This document shows, piece after piece, positions 2,394 through 7,826 of a stretch of 37,666 nucleotides of DNA. The notes below the pieces were generated by a model that ran no database searches, was not told the origin of the DNA, and saw only the letters and a program-made list of their open reading frames with translations. Source of the DNA: Flavobacteriaceae bacterium (GTDB lineage: Bacteria; Bacteroidota; Bacteroidia; Flavobacteriales; Flavobacteriaceae); assembly GCA_026988395.1 (NCBI GenBank), contig JALSLI010000172.1, forward strand, positions 1 to 37,666. Reading direction: 5' to 3'. Each line of letters begins with the position of its first letter. The stretch's first letter is position 1. Made by a program: the position numbers and the translations under genes.

Positions 2394-3470
2394 TTACTTT
2401 CCGGATATAACGCTTTCTTGAATTTTAATAGATTCTTGATGAATAGCTTTATAAATTTTCTCCATAAACCCTTTTGCCAATCCAATTTTATCTCCTTTTT
2501 CGATACGTTCTTGTAATAGTTCATTCCATCTTTCCGGTTGTAAAATAGCTACATTTTGTGCTTTTTTCTCGATTCCTATTTTTTGAGAAATTGCCATTCT
2601 ATTAGCCAATAATTGAATTAAAGAAGCATCTATTTCATTAATTTCATCACGAAGTACTTCTAATTTTTTTAAAGAATTTTCTTTTTCAAAAGAAGATTTT
2701 CTTACTTTAAGTAAGTCTGTAATTTCGTTTAATCTCACAGGAGTGATTTGTTGTTTGGCATCACTCCAGGCGTTATCCGGATCATGATGTGTTTCAATCA
2801 TTAATCCATCAAATTGTAAATCTAATGCCATTTGCGAAACATCTAAAATATTTTCACGATTTCCGCAAATATGCGAAGGGTCATTAATTAGAGGCACTTC
2901 CGGTAAACGGTTTTTAAAATCAATTGCTATTTGCCAATTCGGATTGTTACGATATTTTGTTTTTTGATAGGTTGAAAATCCGCGATGAATAGCTCCAACA
3001 TTTTTAATATTTGCTTTTTGAATACGTTCAATTGCTCCAATCCACAGTTCTAAATCAGGGTTTATCGGATTTTTAACTAAAACAATTTTATCCGTATTTT
3101 GTAGTGCATCTGCTATTTCTTGCACGGCAAAAGGATTTACGGTTGTTCTGGCACCAATCCATAAAATATCGATATCGTGTTCTAATGCCAATTTAACGTG
3201 ATTGGCATTTGCAACCTCAACAGCAGTTAATAATCCTGTTTGCTCCTTTACTTTTTGTAACCACGGAAGTGCCAAAGCACCAATTCCTTCAAAATTTCCG
3301 GGTCTGGTTCTAGGTTTCCAAACACCTGCTCTAAAAACAGTTGCATCTGTTTTTGCCAAATCGTGTGCAATTTTTAAAACTTGCTCTTCGGTTTCGGCAC
3401 TACACGGACCGGCAATCACCAATGGGTGATCTAAATTCATTTTTTCTAGCCAATTATTTTGTGTCATCAT
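2394..3470 (-). CDS. Bifunctional DAHP synthase / chorismate mutase (type II)
   Basis: This 358-residue cytoplasmic enzyme has two domains. Residues 1 to about 255 are a KDO8P-synthase-like DAHP synthase, which condenses phosphoenolpyruvate with erythrose 4-phosphate. Its landmarks are VIAGPCSAE, WKPRTRPGNFEG, NDPSHICGNRE and MIETHHDPDNAWSDA. Residues from about 268 are an AroQ-type chorismate mutase (LRDEINEIDASLIQLLANRM). The mutase at the C terminus is the arrangement known from Porphyromonas and relatives, where prephenate inhibits the synthase; inhibition here is inferred. It is the promoter-distal gene of the aromatic operon, 30 nt after tyrA. The start could be Met1 or Met2. No clear terminator lies in the 3 nt to the convergent permease. 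Confidence 0.95.
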   Translation of the reverse strand: MMTQNNWLEKMNLDHPLVIAGPCSAETEEQVLKIAHDLAKTDATVFRAGVWKPRTRPGNFEGIGALALPWLQKVKEQTGLLTAVEVANANHVKLALEHDIDILWIGARTTVNPFAVQEIADALQNTDKIVLVKNPINPDLELWIGAIERIQKANIKNVGAIHRGFSTYQKTKYRNNPNWQIAIDFKNRLPEVPLINDPSHICGNRENILDVSQMALDLQFDGLMIETHHDPDNAWSDAKQQITPVRLNEITDLLKVRKSSFEKENSLKKLEVLRDEINEIDASLIQLLANRMAISQKIGIEKKAQNVAILQPERWNELLQERIEKGDKIGLAKGFMEKIYKAIHQESIKIQESVISGK

Positions 3471-3500: not shown

Positions 3501-4334
3501 TTAGTTTAGTATTTCTTTGATTTTATTTGTTTTCTTTATTGTATTATAAATTTTTTCTTGTTCTTTATTTTCAATATTTCGTTTAAATTCTTGTAAATTC
3601 CGGATGTATTCTTCTAAGGCATTTAAAATGTGTTTTTTATTTTGTATAAAAATTGGTGTCCAAGTAGTTGGTGCACTTTTTGCCAATCTTACAGTAGATT
3701 CAAAACCACTACCTGCCATATTAAAAATAGTCTCTTCTTCTTTTTCTATTTCCAAAACTGTTTTCCCTAACATAAAGGAACTTATATGTGATAAATGCGA
3801 AACATAAGCAATATGTTTGTCGTGTTGAGAAGCATTTTCCATAAAAACAAATCGCATTTGTAAAGGCTTCATTAATTCTTGATACAATTCCAATTTTTCT
3901 TTAGCTGTTTGAGATTGTTCGCAAATAATATTTACTTTATCGGTAAATAAATTTTTAACTGTAGCTTTTGGACCGGAAAATTCAGTACCTGCAATTGGAT
4001 GCGTTGCTAAAAACTGGTTTCTCTTTGGATGATTTTTCACTTTTTTACACACATTTTCTTTTGTTGAACCAACATCAAAAACCAAAATATTTTTGGGGAT
4101 CTTATTTAAAATGGAAAAAACTACATCAGCCGTTTTATCTACAGGAACTGCAACAACAATGACATCCATTAAATCTATTTTATCAAATGAGATGATTTTA
4201 GAAACCAATCTTAAATCCAGAGCTTGCTGTTGGTGTTCTTGATTATTATCAATACCAAAAACGGTGTGATTTTTAGAAAATTCGAGTGCTAATGAGCCTC
4301 CAATTAAACCTAATCCTATAATTGCTATTTTCAT
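3501..4334 (-). CDS. tyrA: Prephenate dehydrogenase
   Basis: This 277-residue enzyme oxidatively decarboxylates prephenate to 4-hydroxyphenylpyruvate, the tyrosine branch. The N terminus is a Rossmann NAD(P)-binding fold (IAIIGLGLIGGSLAL), and the catalytic His segment THPIAGTEFSGP lies near residues 111-122. No regulatory ACT domain follows the catalytic part, so tyrosine feedback through ACT is not expected. The ATG overlaps the stop of the upstream aminotransferase gene by 4 nt, which indicates translational coupling. An arogenate-specific enzyme cannot be excluded from sequence, but the gene order with a general aminotransferase fits the prephenate route. Confidence 0.93.
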   Translation of the reverse strand: MKIAIIGLGLIGGSLALEFSKNHTVFGIDNNQEHQQQALDLRLVSKIISFDKIDLMDVIVVAVPVDKTADVVFSILNKIPKNILVFDVGSTKENVCKKVKNHPKRNQFLATHPIAGTEFSGPKATVKNLFTDKVNIICEQSQTAKEKLELYQELMKPLQMRFVFMENASQHDKHIAYVSHLSHISSFMLGKTVLEIEKEEETIFNMAGSGFESTVRLAKSAPTTWTPIFIQNKKHILNALEEYIRNLQEFKRNIENKEQEKIYNTIKKTNKIKEILN

Positions 4335-5488
4335 TTTTTAAAATTTATACGTTGGTAAACTTCGTTTAATTTATCTTCATTTATACATAAAGAAATTCGG
4401 ATATACTCTTTTCCGTTTGAACCAAAAATAGTTCCCGGAGTAATAAAAATATGTTTATTATAAAGTAATTTTTCGGTTAAACCGAAAGCTGTTTCTCCAT
4501 CAGGAAGCTTAGCCCAAACAAATAAACCAACACTATTTTTATTGTATGTACAGTTTAGCGTATCTAATATTTTCCACACTATTTTTCTTCTTTTTTCATA
4601 AATAGAATTCAGTTTTTTAAACCAACCGTTTCTAGTCTGTAAAGCAACAATTGCTCCTTTTTGAATGCCGTAAAACATACCACTATCCATATTACTTTTT
4701 ACTTGTAAAACGGTTTTTACATAAGAAGCTTTACCTAACAACATACCAACACGCCAACCTGCCATATTAAAAGTTTTACTAAGGGAATTTAGCTCTAATG
4801 CTACATTTTTAGCTCCTTTAACAGACAAAATACTTAAAGGTTTTTGATTTAAAACAAAGCTATATGGATTATCATTTACCAACAAAATTTGATGTTTTTT
4901 GGCAAAAGCAATTATACGTTCATAAAAAGAAATATTTGCTACAGCTCCCGTTGGCATATTAGGGTAATTTAACCACATAATTTTAACTTTAGACAAATCT
5001 GTTTTTTCCAAAGTTTCTATATCAGGTAACCAATTATTTTTTTCAGATAAATCGTAAAAAACGGGATAGGCTCCGGCCATTTTTGTTGCTGAGGTGTACG
5101 TTATATATCCGGGATTTGGCACCAAAACCTCATCGTTCTTGTTTAAAAAAGCCATTGAAATATGCATAATCCCTTCTTTTGAACCCATTAATGGAAGAAT
5201 TTCATCTTTTACATCTAAGGTTACTTGGTAATGATGTTGGTAAAAATCGGCTATTGCTTTTCTAAATTCTAACAGACCGTGATAGCTTTGATATGAGTGA
5301 TTACTATCCTTAGAAACAGCCTCTAAAATCTCTTGAATGACTTTTTTGGGAGGAGCTAAATCCGGTGAACCAATTCCTAAATTTATAATTGGTTTCCCTT
5401 GATTTTGCATCTCTTTTATTTCTTTTAACTTGGTAGAAAAATAATATTCGTCTATATATTGTAATCTATTTGCTCTTTCTATTATCAT
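4331..5488 (-). CDS. PLP-dependent class I/II aminotransferase, probably aromatic
   Basis: This 385-residue fold-type I aminotransferase shows LGIGSPDLAPP near residue 40, NYPNMPTGA near 175, NDNPYSF near 208, the Schiff-base Lys in LNSLSKTFNMAGWRVG near 240, and a late carboxylate-binding Arg in YIRISLCIN. Its place between pheA and tyrA, overlapping pheA by 23 nt and tyrA by 4 nt, makes the natural role amination of phenylpyruvate and 4-hydroxyphenylpyruvate. Related enzymes are annotated as aspartate or LL-diaminopimelate aminotransferases, so specificity is inferred from context. The overlap with pheA means its start codon lies inside the pheA reading frame. Confidence 0.9.
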   Translation of the reverse strand: MIIERANRLQYIDEYYFSTKLKEIKEMQNQGKPIINLGIGSPDLAPPKKVIQEILEAVSKDSNHSYQSYHGLLEFRKAIADFYQHHYQVTLDVKDEILPLMGSKEGIMHISMAFLNKNDEVLVPNPGYITYTSATKMAGAYPVFYDLSEKNNWLPDIETLEKTDLSKVKIMWLNYPNMPTGAVANISFYERIIAFAKKHQILLVNDNPYSFVLNQKPLSILSVKGAKNVALELNSLSKTFNMAGWRVGMLLGKASYVKTVLQVKSNMDSGMFYGIQKGAIVALQTRNGWFKKLNSIYEKRRKIVWKILDTLNCTYNKNSVGLFVWAKLPDGETAFGLTEKLLYNKHIFITPGTIFGSNGKEYIRISLCINEDKLNEVYQRINFKK

Positions 5489-6308
5489 CTGTTTCTTTTT
5501 TCGTATTTGGGTATTTTCCTAAAATTTTAATAGCAATTTCATTTTTAATTAATTCTTGCTTCGCCTTGTAAAACTGTGTAACATCGTTAAAAATAACGTC
5601 TGCAAAAAAAGCGTATTCCCAAGGATCATTTTCTATTGGTAAAGACTGGATTTTTGTTAAATTTAATTTGTTTTTTACAAAAATTTGTAAAACCTCGGAT
5701 AAACTTCCCATTTTATGTTTGGTAATAAATTTTAAAGAAACTTTGTTAAAATTTTCTTTTTTATAATCTTTGTTATCCAATATAAAAAATCGTGTATAAT
5801 TTTTTGGATTGGTGTGTATATTGGATTTAATAATCGGCATTTTATACATTTCGGATGCCTTTACACTAGCTATTGCAGCGACATTATTCAATTTATTTTC
5901 TTTAATTCTCTTAGCGGCTAATGCAGTATCATCGGTTTCTATTAATTTAATTTTAGGATATTTTCGTAAAAAATCTCTACATTGGTTTATTGCCATAGGA
6001 TGCGACCAAATTTCTTTAATATTAGTCATTTTTTGATTTTTGATTGCCATTAATTGATGTGCTATAGGCAAATAATACTCGCCTACAATGTTTAAATTAA
6101 ACTTGTCTATTAATTTATAATTTGCTAAAATAGCTCCGGCAATAGAATTTTCGATGGCCATAATTAAATATTCTACATTTTGTTCTTTTAATAAATGAGG
6201 CATTTCTTCAAATGTTAAACATTCATTTAACACTATATTTTTTCCAAAATAATTGTTTGCCACAATGTGATGAAAAGATCCTTTTATACCTTGAATTGCT
6301 ATTGTCAT
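5466..6308 (-). CDS. pheA: Prephenate dehydratase
   Basis: This 280-residue enzyme converts prephenate to phenylpyruvate, the committed step to phenylalanine. Residues 1-180 are the periplasmic-binding-protein-like catalytic part ending in the conserved T-R-F triad (YTRFF, 171-175). Residues 190-265 are an ACT domain. The two Phe-binding ACT motifs are altered: GALV is GSLS (201-204), and ESRP is QSLP (221-224). There is no fused chorismate mutase; that activity comes from the last gene of the operon. This is the first structural gene of the operon. Its ATG lies 15 nt after the end of the T-tract of the attenuator, so its expression depends on read-through of that terminator. Confidence 0.94.
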   Translation of the reverse strand: MTIAIQGIKGSFHHIVANNYFGKNIVLNECLTFEEMPHLLKEQNVEYLIMAIENSIAGAILANYKLIDKFNLNIVGEYYLPIAHQLMAIKNQKMTNIKEIWSHPMAINQCRDFLRKYPKIKLIETDDTALAAKRIKENKLNNVAAIASVKASEMYKMPIIKSNIHTNPKNYTRFFILDNKDYKKENFNKVSLKFITKHKMGSLSEVLQIFVKNKLNLTKIQSLPIENDPWEYAFFADVIFNDVTQFYKAKQELIKNEIAIKILGKYPNTKKETDDNRKSK

Positions 6309-6323
6309 ATGTTTTTAATGCAT

Positions 6324-6351
6324 AAAAAAGTCTCGTTAAAAACGAGACTTT
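6324..6351 (-). terminator. Intrinsic terminator (attenuator) in the pheA leader
   Basis: On the minus strand an 11-bp perfect stem, AAAGTCTCGTT (6351-6341) with AACGAGACTTT (6337-6327), closes a 3-nt TTT loop and runs directly into a T-tract ending at 6324 (TTTTTT, partly in the stem). The pheA ATG follows 15 nt later. A terminator between a promoter and the first gene of a biosynthetic operon only makes sense as a conditional attenuator. Read on the plus strand, the stem is followed by ATTGTAAAT, which is a poor terminator, and no plus-strand gene feeds into it. Confidence 0.88.
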
Positions 6352-6392
6352 ATTGTAAATTACTTGAGTTATATTTTAATTATACACATACA

Positions 6393-6461
6393 TCATCTCG
6401 ATAGTTTTATTCTAAAATAAAACCAATACAAGAAAGTAAAATATGTGTTTTGTAAATTCAT
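6393..6461 (-). CDS. Aromatic-rich leader peptide of the pheA operon
   Basis: This 22-codon ORF runs from ATG at 6461 to TGA at 6393. Residues 7-16 read YFTFLYWFYF: four Phe, three Tyr and one Trp in ten positions. That is far beyond chance and typical of an attenuation leader peptide that senses aminoacyl-tRNA. The ORF starts about 19 nt after the -7 box, so it is translated from the very 5' end of the transcript. The C terminus, RIKLSR, is basic and contains the nucleotides (CGAGA, 6400-6396) that can pair with the 5' arm of the terminator. No Shine-Dalgarno sequence is visible, as is usual in this phylum. The peptide itself probably has no other role. Confidence 0.87.
   Translation of the reverse strand: MNLQNTYFTFLYWFYFRIKLSR
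6404..6423 (-). promoter_or_regulatory. Hairpin inside the leader-peptide ORF
   Basis: A perfect 8-bp inverted repeat, GTTTTATT and AATAAAAC with a 4-nt loop, covers codons 13-20 of the leader peptide. It overlaps the Trp-Phe-Tyr-Phe codons, so a ribosome stalled there would disrupt it. It sits where classical attenuators carry the 1:2 (pause/protector) hairpin. The stem is AT-rich, so stability is modest. Confidence 0.55.
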
Positions 6462-6479
6462 TACTATTATTTAGTGTGA

Positions 6480-6510
6480 CAAATCTAAACAAAAAATTAA
6501 ACTAAACAAT
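6480..6510 (-). promoter_or_regulatory. Promoter of the leader-pheA operon
   Basis: On the minus strand, ATTG (6510-6507) is followed after exactly 19 nt by TAGATTTG (6487-6480). This matches the Bacteroidota vegetative promoter, a -33 TTG element and a -7 TAnnTTTG box. Transcription should start near 6473-6476, about 12-15 nt before the leader-peptide ATG. It is the best two-part promoter match I found in the window. Confidence 0.8.
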
Positions 6511-6613: not shown

Positions 6614-6922
6614 ATGAAAAAATTAAGAGAACATTGGGAGATAAGCTCTAACCTGCAATTGGCATTAATCATTTTTGTCTTTGCCATTAATGGTTCTTTA
6701 TCTGCTTTTGCCACCAGAAATTTTTTTAGTCTCATTCATCATTCAAGAGAAAACGTTCATCCAATTTTTTATTGGTTGGTTTACTTTATAACCATTAGTG
6801 TTTTTTACTTTTTATTGCTAGCAATAACCAGTAGAATTTTTGGAAAAAACACCTTTCCTTTTTTTAAAAAATTTGCTAAAAAATCTTTAAAACCATTAGG
6901 TCTAAGCAGGTTTATTTTGTAG
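6614..6922 (+). CDS. DUF6787-like small membrane protein
   Basis: This 102-residue protein has two hydrophobic segments, roughly residues 16-34 and 50-72, separated by a His/Arg-rich loop, and a basic C terminus. The N-terminal pattern (KLREHWEISSNLQLALIIF) and the Gly/Ser-rich first membrane segment fit the DUF6787 proteins common in Flavobacteriia. Function is unknown. Its last 11 nt overlap the 3' end of the convergent gene. The -7 box 5 nt before the ATG fixes the start. Confidence 0.6.
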   Translation: MKKLREHWEISSNLQLALIIFVFAINGSLSAFATRNFFSLIHHSRENVHPIFYWLVYFITISVFYFLLLAITSRIFGKNTFPFFKKFAKKSLKPLGLSRFIL

Positions 6923-7184
6923 TATCTTTCTTAAAATAAGTAGTCCAAATCCACATTATGGTAAAGGTAGGAATAAAATCCGTCCAAGGTGCAATTTCCT
7001 CTAAAAACACCGTAGCACTTGCTATTTTTGAAGGCATTCCTTTATACAATTTCAACATTAAATAAGCTGCAATTGGTGCCCAAACAACGTCCGAAAATTC
7101 TCCAATCGTAGGAATGGTAAAAGATATTAATCCGATTAAATCGAGTACAATACTAATAACTAAAAGTGAATATTTGTTTTTCAT
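6912..7184 (-). CDS. Small hypothetical membrane protein
   Basis: This 90-residue protein has an N-terminal hydrophobic segment (residues 6-24), a second at about 33-45 and a third near 70-83 (FTIMWIWTTYF). It has a lysine-rich tail. I do not recognise a named family. It lies 45 nt downstream of folE on the same strand and probably shares its transcript. It converges on the DUF6787 gene with an 11-nt overlap of 3' ends. Reality as a gene rests on membrane-protein composition and good placement. Confidence 0.6.
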   Translation of the reverse strand: MKNKYSLLVISIVLDLIGLISFTIPTIGEFSDVVWAPIAAYLMLKLYKGMPSKIASATVFLEEIAPWTDFIPTFTIMWIWTTYFKKDTTK

Positions 7185-7229: not shown

Positions 7230-7826
7230 CTAATGTAAATTAGCATCAATTAGTTTTAAAAATTCCAATCTTGTTTCTACATTTTTAAACACACCTCTAA
7301 AAGCCGAAGTGGTTGTAACCGAATTCTGTTTTTGCACACCACGCATCATCATACACATATGTGAGGCTTCAATAACCACAGCGACACCTTGTGGTTTTAA
7401 CACTCTATCGATTACATTTACGATTTGATCGGTTAAACGTTCTTGTACTTGCAAGCGTCTAGCAAAAACATCTACTACTCTTGGTAATTTACTCAAGCCT
7501 ACAATTTTTCCGTTAGGAATATAAGCAATATGAGCTTTACCAAAAAAAGGCAAAATATGATGTTCGCAAAGCGAATACAGTTCGATATCTTTAACGATGA
7601 CCATTTCGGAATAATCTTCAGTAAATAAAGCGGATTTTAAGATTTCTTCGGCATCTAAATCATAACCTTGTGTTAGAAATTGCATTGCTTTTGATGCACG
7701 CTCGGGGGTTTTTAACAAACCTTCTCGTTGTGGATCTTCTCCTATTTCTAAAATTATTGCTTTGTATTTCTCTTTAATATTCTCAGTTGTTTGTATGTTG
7801 TATTCTTCAAATTTATTGTAGCTCAT
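7230..7826 (-). CDS. folE: GTP cyclohydrolase I
   Basis: This 198-residue enzyme converts GTP to 7,8-dihydroneopterin triphosphate, the first step of folate and pterin synthesis, normally as a cytoplasmic decamer. Zinc ligands are visible: Cys87 in [10 protein letters not shown] and Cys158 in [11 protein letters not shown]. The catalytic and substrate region [27 protein letters not shown] spans about residues 107-132. The length is typical. It lies 87 nt downstream of the msrA stop with no clear terminator between them, so a separate promoter is likely but not obvious; no exact TAnnTTTG box was found before the ATG. Confidence 0.96.

Follow-up and report, generated by a model that had tools for sequence, protein, structure and literature searches.

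A probable ribosome-mediated attenuator with a Phe/Tyr-rich leader peptide in front of the pheA operon of Flavobacteriaceae and related Bacteroidota

Does the short reading frame crowded with aromatic codons that precedes the pheA operon of a Flavobacteriaceae bacterium control transcription of that operon, or is it an accident of AT-rich DNA ahead of an ordinary terminator? We examined this in a 37,666-nt stretch of DNA (hereafter the window). The operon lies on the minus strand and comprises, in order, pheA (prephenate dehydratase, 5466–6308, assigned by homology), a class I/II aminotransferase gene (4331–5488, with an aromatic specificity suggested by context alone), tyrA (prephenate dehydrogenase, 3501–4334, again by homology) and a gene for a DAHP synthase-chorismate mutase fusion (2394–3470), all overlapping or closely spaced. 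The C-terminus of PheA gives a weak match to the ACT domain (24.7 bits, under the Pfam cut-off of 27). The fusion is the sole full-length DAHP synthase homologue found in the source genome, although the 84% completeness of that genome limits how far it can be called the single one. Each of 19 family genomes searched also has one full-length homologue, as well as an additional 26–31% identical hit of KdsA-like length (presumably KdsA); in G200 there is also a 41-residue fragment at a contig edge, and a class II DAHP synthase was found in none of 31 genomes. Directly in front of the leader is a DUF6787 gene (6614–6922), divergent from the operon, and farther upstream there are minus-strand ORFs at 6912–7184 and 7230–7826. 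The first of these, of 90 residues and without a Pfam match, overlaps the end of the DUF6787 gene.

The initial annotation had placed four elements on the minus strand ahead of pheA (a promoter, a leader ORF, a hairpin within this ORF and a terminator), and all four are found there, with every coordinate correct. The putative promoter (6480–6510) consists of ATTG at 6510–6507, a 19-nt spacer and TAGATTTG at 6487–6480, a combination that fits the Bacteroidota-type consensus. Of 157 leaders (a set defined below), 49 have a strict TAnnTTTG motif in the 60 nt that precede the leader start and 108 lack it, compared with 8.4 of 157 that have it after mononucleotide shuffling; TTG lies upstream of the motif in 41 of those 49. 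The leader peptide ORF (6393–6461) runs over 22 codons from the ATG at 6461 to the TGA at 6395–6393 and encodes MNLQNTYFTFLYWFYFRIKLSR, in which codons 7–16 (6414–6443) read YFTFLYWFYF; 8 of these 10 residues are aromatic, and they are the proposed stall sites. Behind the ORF comes an 11-bp terminator, made of a 5' arm Y, AAAGTCTCGTT (6341–6351), and a 3' arm Z, AACGAGACTTT (6337–6327), which with the T-tract spans 6324–6337; the T-tract reaches 6324 and the structure ends 15 nt upstream of the pheA ATG (6308). Arm Y is common to the terminator and to a candidate antiterminator, whose other arm X, CGAGAU (6395–6400), is formed by the last two leader codons and the first base of the stop codon and can pair with GUCUCG at 6348–6343.

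We suggest that this leader is very probably a ribosome-mediated transcription attenuator of the pheA-aminotransferase-tyrA-DAHP synthase/chorismate mutase operon. The attenuator reading, already put forward in the initial annotation, is supported by its recurrence in relatives, by joint changes of X, Y and Z, by spacing and by codons matched to the pathway, while stalling, termination, read-through and promoter use are what we infer from these features. In such a mechanism, a short RNA would encode the 22-residue peptide, and reading codons 7–16 would draw on charged tRNAs for Phe, Tyr and, at a single codon, Trp. With a good supply, the ribosome would reach the stop codon and cover X, Y:Z would form, and transcription would end ~150 nt from its start. 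With Phe or Tyr short, the ribosome would stall on the aromatic run, cover an upstream segment 1 and halt just before X, so that X:Y could form before Z is made; there would be no terminator and the operon would be transcribed. If the leader is not translated at all, segment 1 might pair with X and the terminator would form, a tentative step that we regard as the least certain of the scheme.

The recurrence of the arrangement was scored in the 420 nt upstream of pheA orthologues in whole genomes (191 regions in total), by a rule that asks for an ORF of 10–50 codons in which some stretch of ten codons includes six or more F/Y/W, and for an intrinsic terminator behind this ORF. A pheA match was present in 178 family genomes, and the 122 genus and family regions examined were taken mainly by order of match score. 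Three regions were excluded before counting, L003 with pheA at a contig edge and L107 and L192 as duplicates of L053 and L017. The rule is satisfied by 6/6 genomes of the genus (window included) and by 114/116 others of the family. Beyond the family it is satisfied by 7/23 genomes in the remainder of the order, by 24/29 belonging to other orders of the same class and by 3/17 elsewhere in the phylum. In this comparison of relatives, the kind of check that the initial annotation had proposed, the ORF, the terminator and the antiterminator pairing all recurred, with coordinated base changes (detailed below).

These counts bear on the simplest competing explanation, in which the terminator is an ordinary one belonging to an upstream transcript, the ORF is a chance Phe/Tyr reading of AT-rich DNA, and there is no control by translation. 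The region is indeed very AT-rich, so that TTT and TAT come cheaply, the minus-strand ORFs at 6912–7184 and 7230–7826 could supply an upstream transcript, and dinucleotide shuffles satisfy the ORF part of the rule alone in 4/120 cases for the genus, 158/2320 for the family, 21/460 for the order, 12/580 for the class and 7/340 for the phylum. Against this stand the retention of ORF and terminator in nearly every family genome and the behaviour at a higher density, since at least 7 aromatic residues in ten are reached by 112/116 family genomes but by only 32/2320 of their shuffles, and by 0/120 shuffles of the genus regions. The window itself has 8 in ten, for which the binomial p is ~1e-7 at the 8.5% F+Y+W content of the operon proteins (uncorrected for the number of frames). 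Moreover, the pheA leaders contain 82 in-frame TGG triplets, but only 14 and 21 in the two alternative frames. Together with the pathway-matched codons and the terminator-specific pairing described below, this makes a chance reading extremely improbable.

A second tally, kept separate and in partial overlap with the genome set above, was made on named loci. A contig scan with the PheA of the window as the only query recovered no relative, and a search with a 14-sequence PheA alignment gave 590 candidates. Among the best 80 of these, 79 have an F/Y/W-rich leader ORF (the terminator was not scored here), including loci of Flavobacterium, Tenacibaculum, Aquimarina, Maribacter and Bizionia.

Two working sets were drawn from the genome survey. 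The 157-leader set consists of the 154 regions passing the rule plus L097, L098 and L100, which have only 5/10 aromatic residues and X:Y helices of 8–9 bp and look genuine though the rule fails them. The 150-leader set, used for foldings, the codon-shuffle control, base-change counts and the spacing mean, omits seven leaders with a weak X (L088, L105, L110, L122, L157, L160 and L175). One of these, L122, passes the rule but is in our view spurious, with an X:Y score of only 9.5. The rule is also failed by L156, yet a terminator is visible there by eye.

Given that Phe and Tyr codons are cheap in AT-rich DNA, other pathways in related genomes provide the best control of codon specificity. Of 31 genomes searched for HisG, 15 gave a match (the window's own genome did not), and in 15 of these 15 loci (L197–L211) a short ORF with a His run lies upstream of hisG, with 3–6 His per ten codons. 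Upstream of trpE, a Trp-run leader is present in 18/20 loci, with WWW in 16 and WW in 2. In the window's own genome (L251), a 21-codon ORF, MQKNTLNTNWWWLQSNLKIVI, carries WWW about 154 nt upstream of a trpE-like gene. The genes concerned gave the top scores with the trpE model, though below its curated cut-off, and their identity as trpE is probable on that basis. Leaders of relatives at hisG and trpE resemble the one at pheA in that a short ORF ahead of the first gene clusters codons of the pathway's own amino acid, and differ in carrying His or Trp runs instead of a Phe/Tyr mix. Judged by these reading frames, leader codons follow the pathway at pheA, hisG and trpE, which counts further against a chance aromatic reading. 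At thrA, 7/16 upstream stretches (L352–L367) reach 5 Thr/Ile in 10, with 4/16 starts misplaced (L355, L357, L359 and L360); several of the short ORFs end in ITPWG-, TITLWG- or TTTPLG-like tails, and the thrA of the window's own genome (L359) has no Thr/Ile leader after its start is re-placed.

The pairing between the end of the leader ORF and the terminator offers a more specific test. It had been proposed that CGAGA (6400–6396), complementary to TCTCG (6347–6343) in the 5' terminator arm, acts as an antiterminator, and this proposal gains considerably from the comparison of species. In the 157 leaders, the best helix of X with its own Y has a mean score of 17.0, compared with 12.2 for the Y of other species and 10.2 for shuffled X. 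In a permutation test, X was sought only within a set distance past the last aromatic codon, and 143 pairs were kept once redundancy had been removed. Real X:Y pairs score 16.98 and pairs with permuted Y 12.56, a difference from which shared ancestry is not removed; 0/5000 permutations reach the real value, and the result also holds when the 106 pairs of the genus and family and the 37 others are tested separately. Y cores vary among the 150 leaders (GTCTCG in 73, GTCCCG in 25, ATCCCG in 13, ATCCTG in 9, GCCTCG and GTCCTG in 6 each, others in 18), and X and Z change together with them. At one position, X:Y is Watson-Crick where Z:Y is a G-U wobble in 32/150 leaders, and therefore X is not merely a copy of Z. 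As X was picked for its complementarity in the base-pair counts, the permutation test is the fair measure. Such a fit of each leader to its own terminator also argues against an ordinary terminator lying by chance behind an unrelated ORF.

The position of X is fixed with respect to the sensing codons rather than the stop codon: it starts 10.1±1.9 nt past the last aromatic codon (n=150), while its distance to the stop is loose (sd 8.0). It falls 7–13 nt past the last aromatic codon in 144/157 leaders, compared with 16% for shuffled X. A ribosome reaches about 12 nt past its A site; with a spacing of ~10 nt, a ribosome stalled on the last aromatic codon should therefore end at X. With the same reach assumed, a ribosome that has arrived at the stop codon would overlap X in 94% of the 157 leaders and take in the whole of X in 70%. 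The notion that a stalled ribosome would leave this arm free and a ribosome at the stop codon would cover it, first worked out for the window alone, is consistent with both figures. Coverage of up to 12 nt downstream is also given in a passage of a published study (PMC4833913).

The passages of that study on leader genes touch on a second competing explanation, namely that the ORF serves translation reinitiation or coupling and not transcription attenuation: in Bacteroidetes, leader genes often lie near start codons, most commonly at 11–14 bp (PMC4833913). In the window, however, the leader stop is 84 nt ahead of pheA, with a terminator and its T-tract in between, and according to the discussion in the same paper attenuation requires the longer distance (PMC4833913). 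We give reinitiation or coupling almost no credence as the function of the ORF.

Returning to attenuation, the X:Y helix of the window is short (6 bp, duplex energy −7.3 kcal/mol) and ranks with the weaker helices of the set. As soon as Z has been made, the terminator has the lowest energy of all folds of the window at every modelled ribosome position, so that antitermination must be kinetic. In foldings with a stalled ribosome X:Y forms in 150/150 leaders, partly by construction, as X had been chosen for complementarity.

In a classical attenuator, alternative pairings follow a 1:2 / 2:3 / 3:4 logic. The same logic would apply here, with segment 1 formed by the sensing codons themselves. In the window, segment 1 is UCUUG (6429–6433, codons 10–11), which in the predicted fold of the ribosome-free leader pairs with CGAGA at 6400–6396. 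The 8-bp hairpin within the ORF (6404–6423), which had been listed as an element of its own, is present as described, but it is only the tip of a larger predicted hairpin of the 1:2 type that spans 6384–6448, with an outer helix joining 6448–6441 to 6391–6384. On its own, the hairpin of the window is weak (z = −1.6; 13/200 shuffles fold at least as well). Across the set, in RNA ending before Y and free of ribosomes, X is in a helix with the upstream ORF in 141/150 leaders (94%, compared with 64% when the order of upstream codons is shuffled), and the real fold is steadier than the shuffle mean in 144/150 (−19.6 vs −14.8 kcal/mol). The upstream partner of X falls within the aromatic run, and the last aromatic codon ends a median of 17.5 nt behind it. 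These models suggest that the larger hairpin can hide X before Y is made. When the RNA is extended to the terminator loop, again ribosome-free, X:Y is the lowest-energy state in 106/150 leaders and in 4/6 of the genus, and is not favoured in the window itself. This result and the weak fold of the window by itself speak against a simple protector, although a protector hairpin may act by forming first.

A terminator by itself would be compatible with control that bypasses the leader peptide, by an RNA-binding protein, a riboswitch or a T-box. A search of the window's 37,666 bases with Rfam families at their curated gathering scores (Phe_leader and other leaders, T-box, riboswitch) gave 0 matches, and what is conserved is a unit of short ORF, pathway-specific codons and a spacing set by the last aromatic codon. 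Leader-independent control at the terminator is consequently very unlikely, and we continue with the leader peptide as the probable sensor.

What would it sense? The initial annotation had claimed that three aromatic tRNAs are read at once, and for two of them the case is good. The 157 leaders hold 811 Phe and 562 Tyr among 3598 codons (start codons excluded), a codon usage by which Phe and Tyr appear well supported as signals. The case for Trp is weak. A Trp codon is present in 82/157 leaders and missing from 75. There is never more than one, and most often it precedes the last aromatic codon by five codons; it occurs in 3/6 leaders of the genus, 70/114 of the family, 1/10 of the order, 8/24 of the class and 0/3 elsewhere in the phylum, and in 32/79 of the named set. 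With trpE having a Trp-run leader of its own, sensing of Trp by the pheA leader seems doubtful. A Trp input would nevertheless be reasonable, given that no DAHP synthase was found other than the one encoded in this operon. A broader proposal, which is tentative and which we think rather unlikely, is that an old attenuator, pre-dating the split of the orders of Bacteroidia, integrates the charging of Phe, Tyr and Trp tRNAs and sets the flux of the whole pathway through its only DAHP synthase, with lineages gaining and losing the single Trp codon to tune the Trp input.

For Proteobacteria and Actinobacteria, attenuation by leader peptides is textbook knowledge. The attenuators of pheA, trp and his in Enterobacteria (Rfam Phe_leader, Trp_leader and His_leader) likewise combine codons for the end product, mutually exclusive pairings and an intrinsic terminator before the first gene. 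The present leader differs from them in belonging to another phylum, in having no Rfam match at gathering score, in apparently reading Phe and Tyr (sometimes Trp) jointly and in placing X within or next to the tail of the ORF. In E. coli, the multivalent attenuators of ilvGMEDA (Ile/Val/Leu) and thr (Thr/Ile) similarly let one leader sense several amino acids of the operon's pathway, while here it is the aromatic family that is concerned, with both terminal branches and the only DAHP synthase found in one operon. The mechanism is classical; the new points are how widely it occurs, the rule that governs the spacing and a lone Trp codon that is optional.

The element had been thought to lack a described example, and this holds only in part. 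A 2021 transcriptome of Flavobacterium psychrophilum reports a structured 5' element at pheA, conserved in other genera and without an Rfam match, and mentions 'strong clues' that operons for amino-acid biosynthesis in general are attenuated through leader peptides (PMC9723704). The element in question is very probably the same as the one considered here, but the section devoted to it does not deal with a leader peptide, its codons, an antiterminator switch or a reach beyond the family (PMC9723704). In Bacteroides thetaiotaomicron, short ORFs in long 5' UTRs are described, in the passage concerned, as reminiscent of attenuation leaders (PMC7366714). Another published passage on the same phylum suggests leader-peptide attenuation, but for a hypothetical gene and not an aromatic operon, and offers no mechanism there. 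As stated in part of a 2010 paper, its own case in Firmicutes was the first leader-peptide system to be shown in bacteria other than Proteobacteria and Actinobacteria (PMC2965389). In the open-licence literature, supplements apart, we found no passage that describes a pheA leader peptide in Bacteroidota; such attenuation in Bacteroidetes may have been predicted earlier.

The leader matters, in our opinion, as a fully formed attenuator that is widespread in one class of Bacteroidota where little of this kind has been described, with similar leader ORFs also at hisG and trpE of relatives. Because of the spacing rule, with X ~10 nt past the last aromatic codon, the model of ribosome positions can be read from the sequence by itself, and the presence or absence of the single Trp codon among natural leaders opens multi-tRNA sensing to a direct test.

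The distribution of the leader has gaps. In the class it is missing from L134, L135, L137 and L138, and in the family from 2/116 genomes. The order accounts for 16 misses: seven are family f5 (all 7 genomes examined, with a divergent pheA, 29–33% identical), four are genomes of 600 kb, three have 5/10 aromatic residues and two are without a leader (L099 and L108). Five 600-kb genomes of the order (L115, L118, L119, L121 and L122) keep pheA with no convincing attenuator, perhaps reflecting relaxed regulation. In the leaderless L134, L094 and L331, pheA follows a same-strand ORF at 8, about 45 and 177 nt, respectively, so that some losses accompany a different upstream context; L331 is Echinicola shivajiensis, and its upstream ORF is aroA-like by eye. 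Repeats are seen by eye upstream of pheA in L015, which also has no leader.

Outside the class, three of the 17 genomes (L175, L176 and L177) have both leader and terminator. Their pheA is 40–44% identical to that of the window, compared with up to 39% in the other 14, and the presence of leaders there hints, as far as sequence comparison goes, at transfer or deeper ancestry. Running counter to this hint, L368 is leaderless at 46% identity, and X:Y is weak in L175. L368 belongs to a genome of the phylum with two pheA copies, and a leader is found at neither of them (the second, L369, is 34% identical).

A last detail concerns codon usage within the leader. Codon 10 of the window's leader (6434–6432) is TTC, a codon that the four genes of the operon use for only 1/53 Phe. 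It lies in segment 1, and the predicted hairpin joins its C to X, so that RNA pairing may explain the choice of this rare codon.
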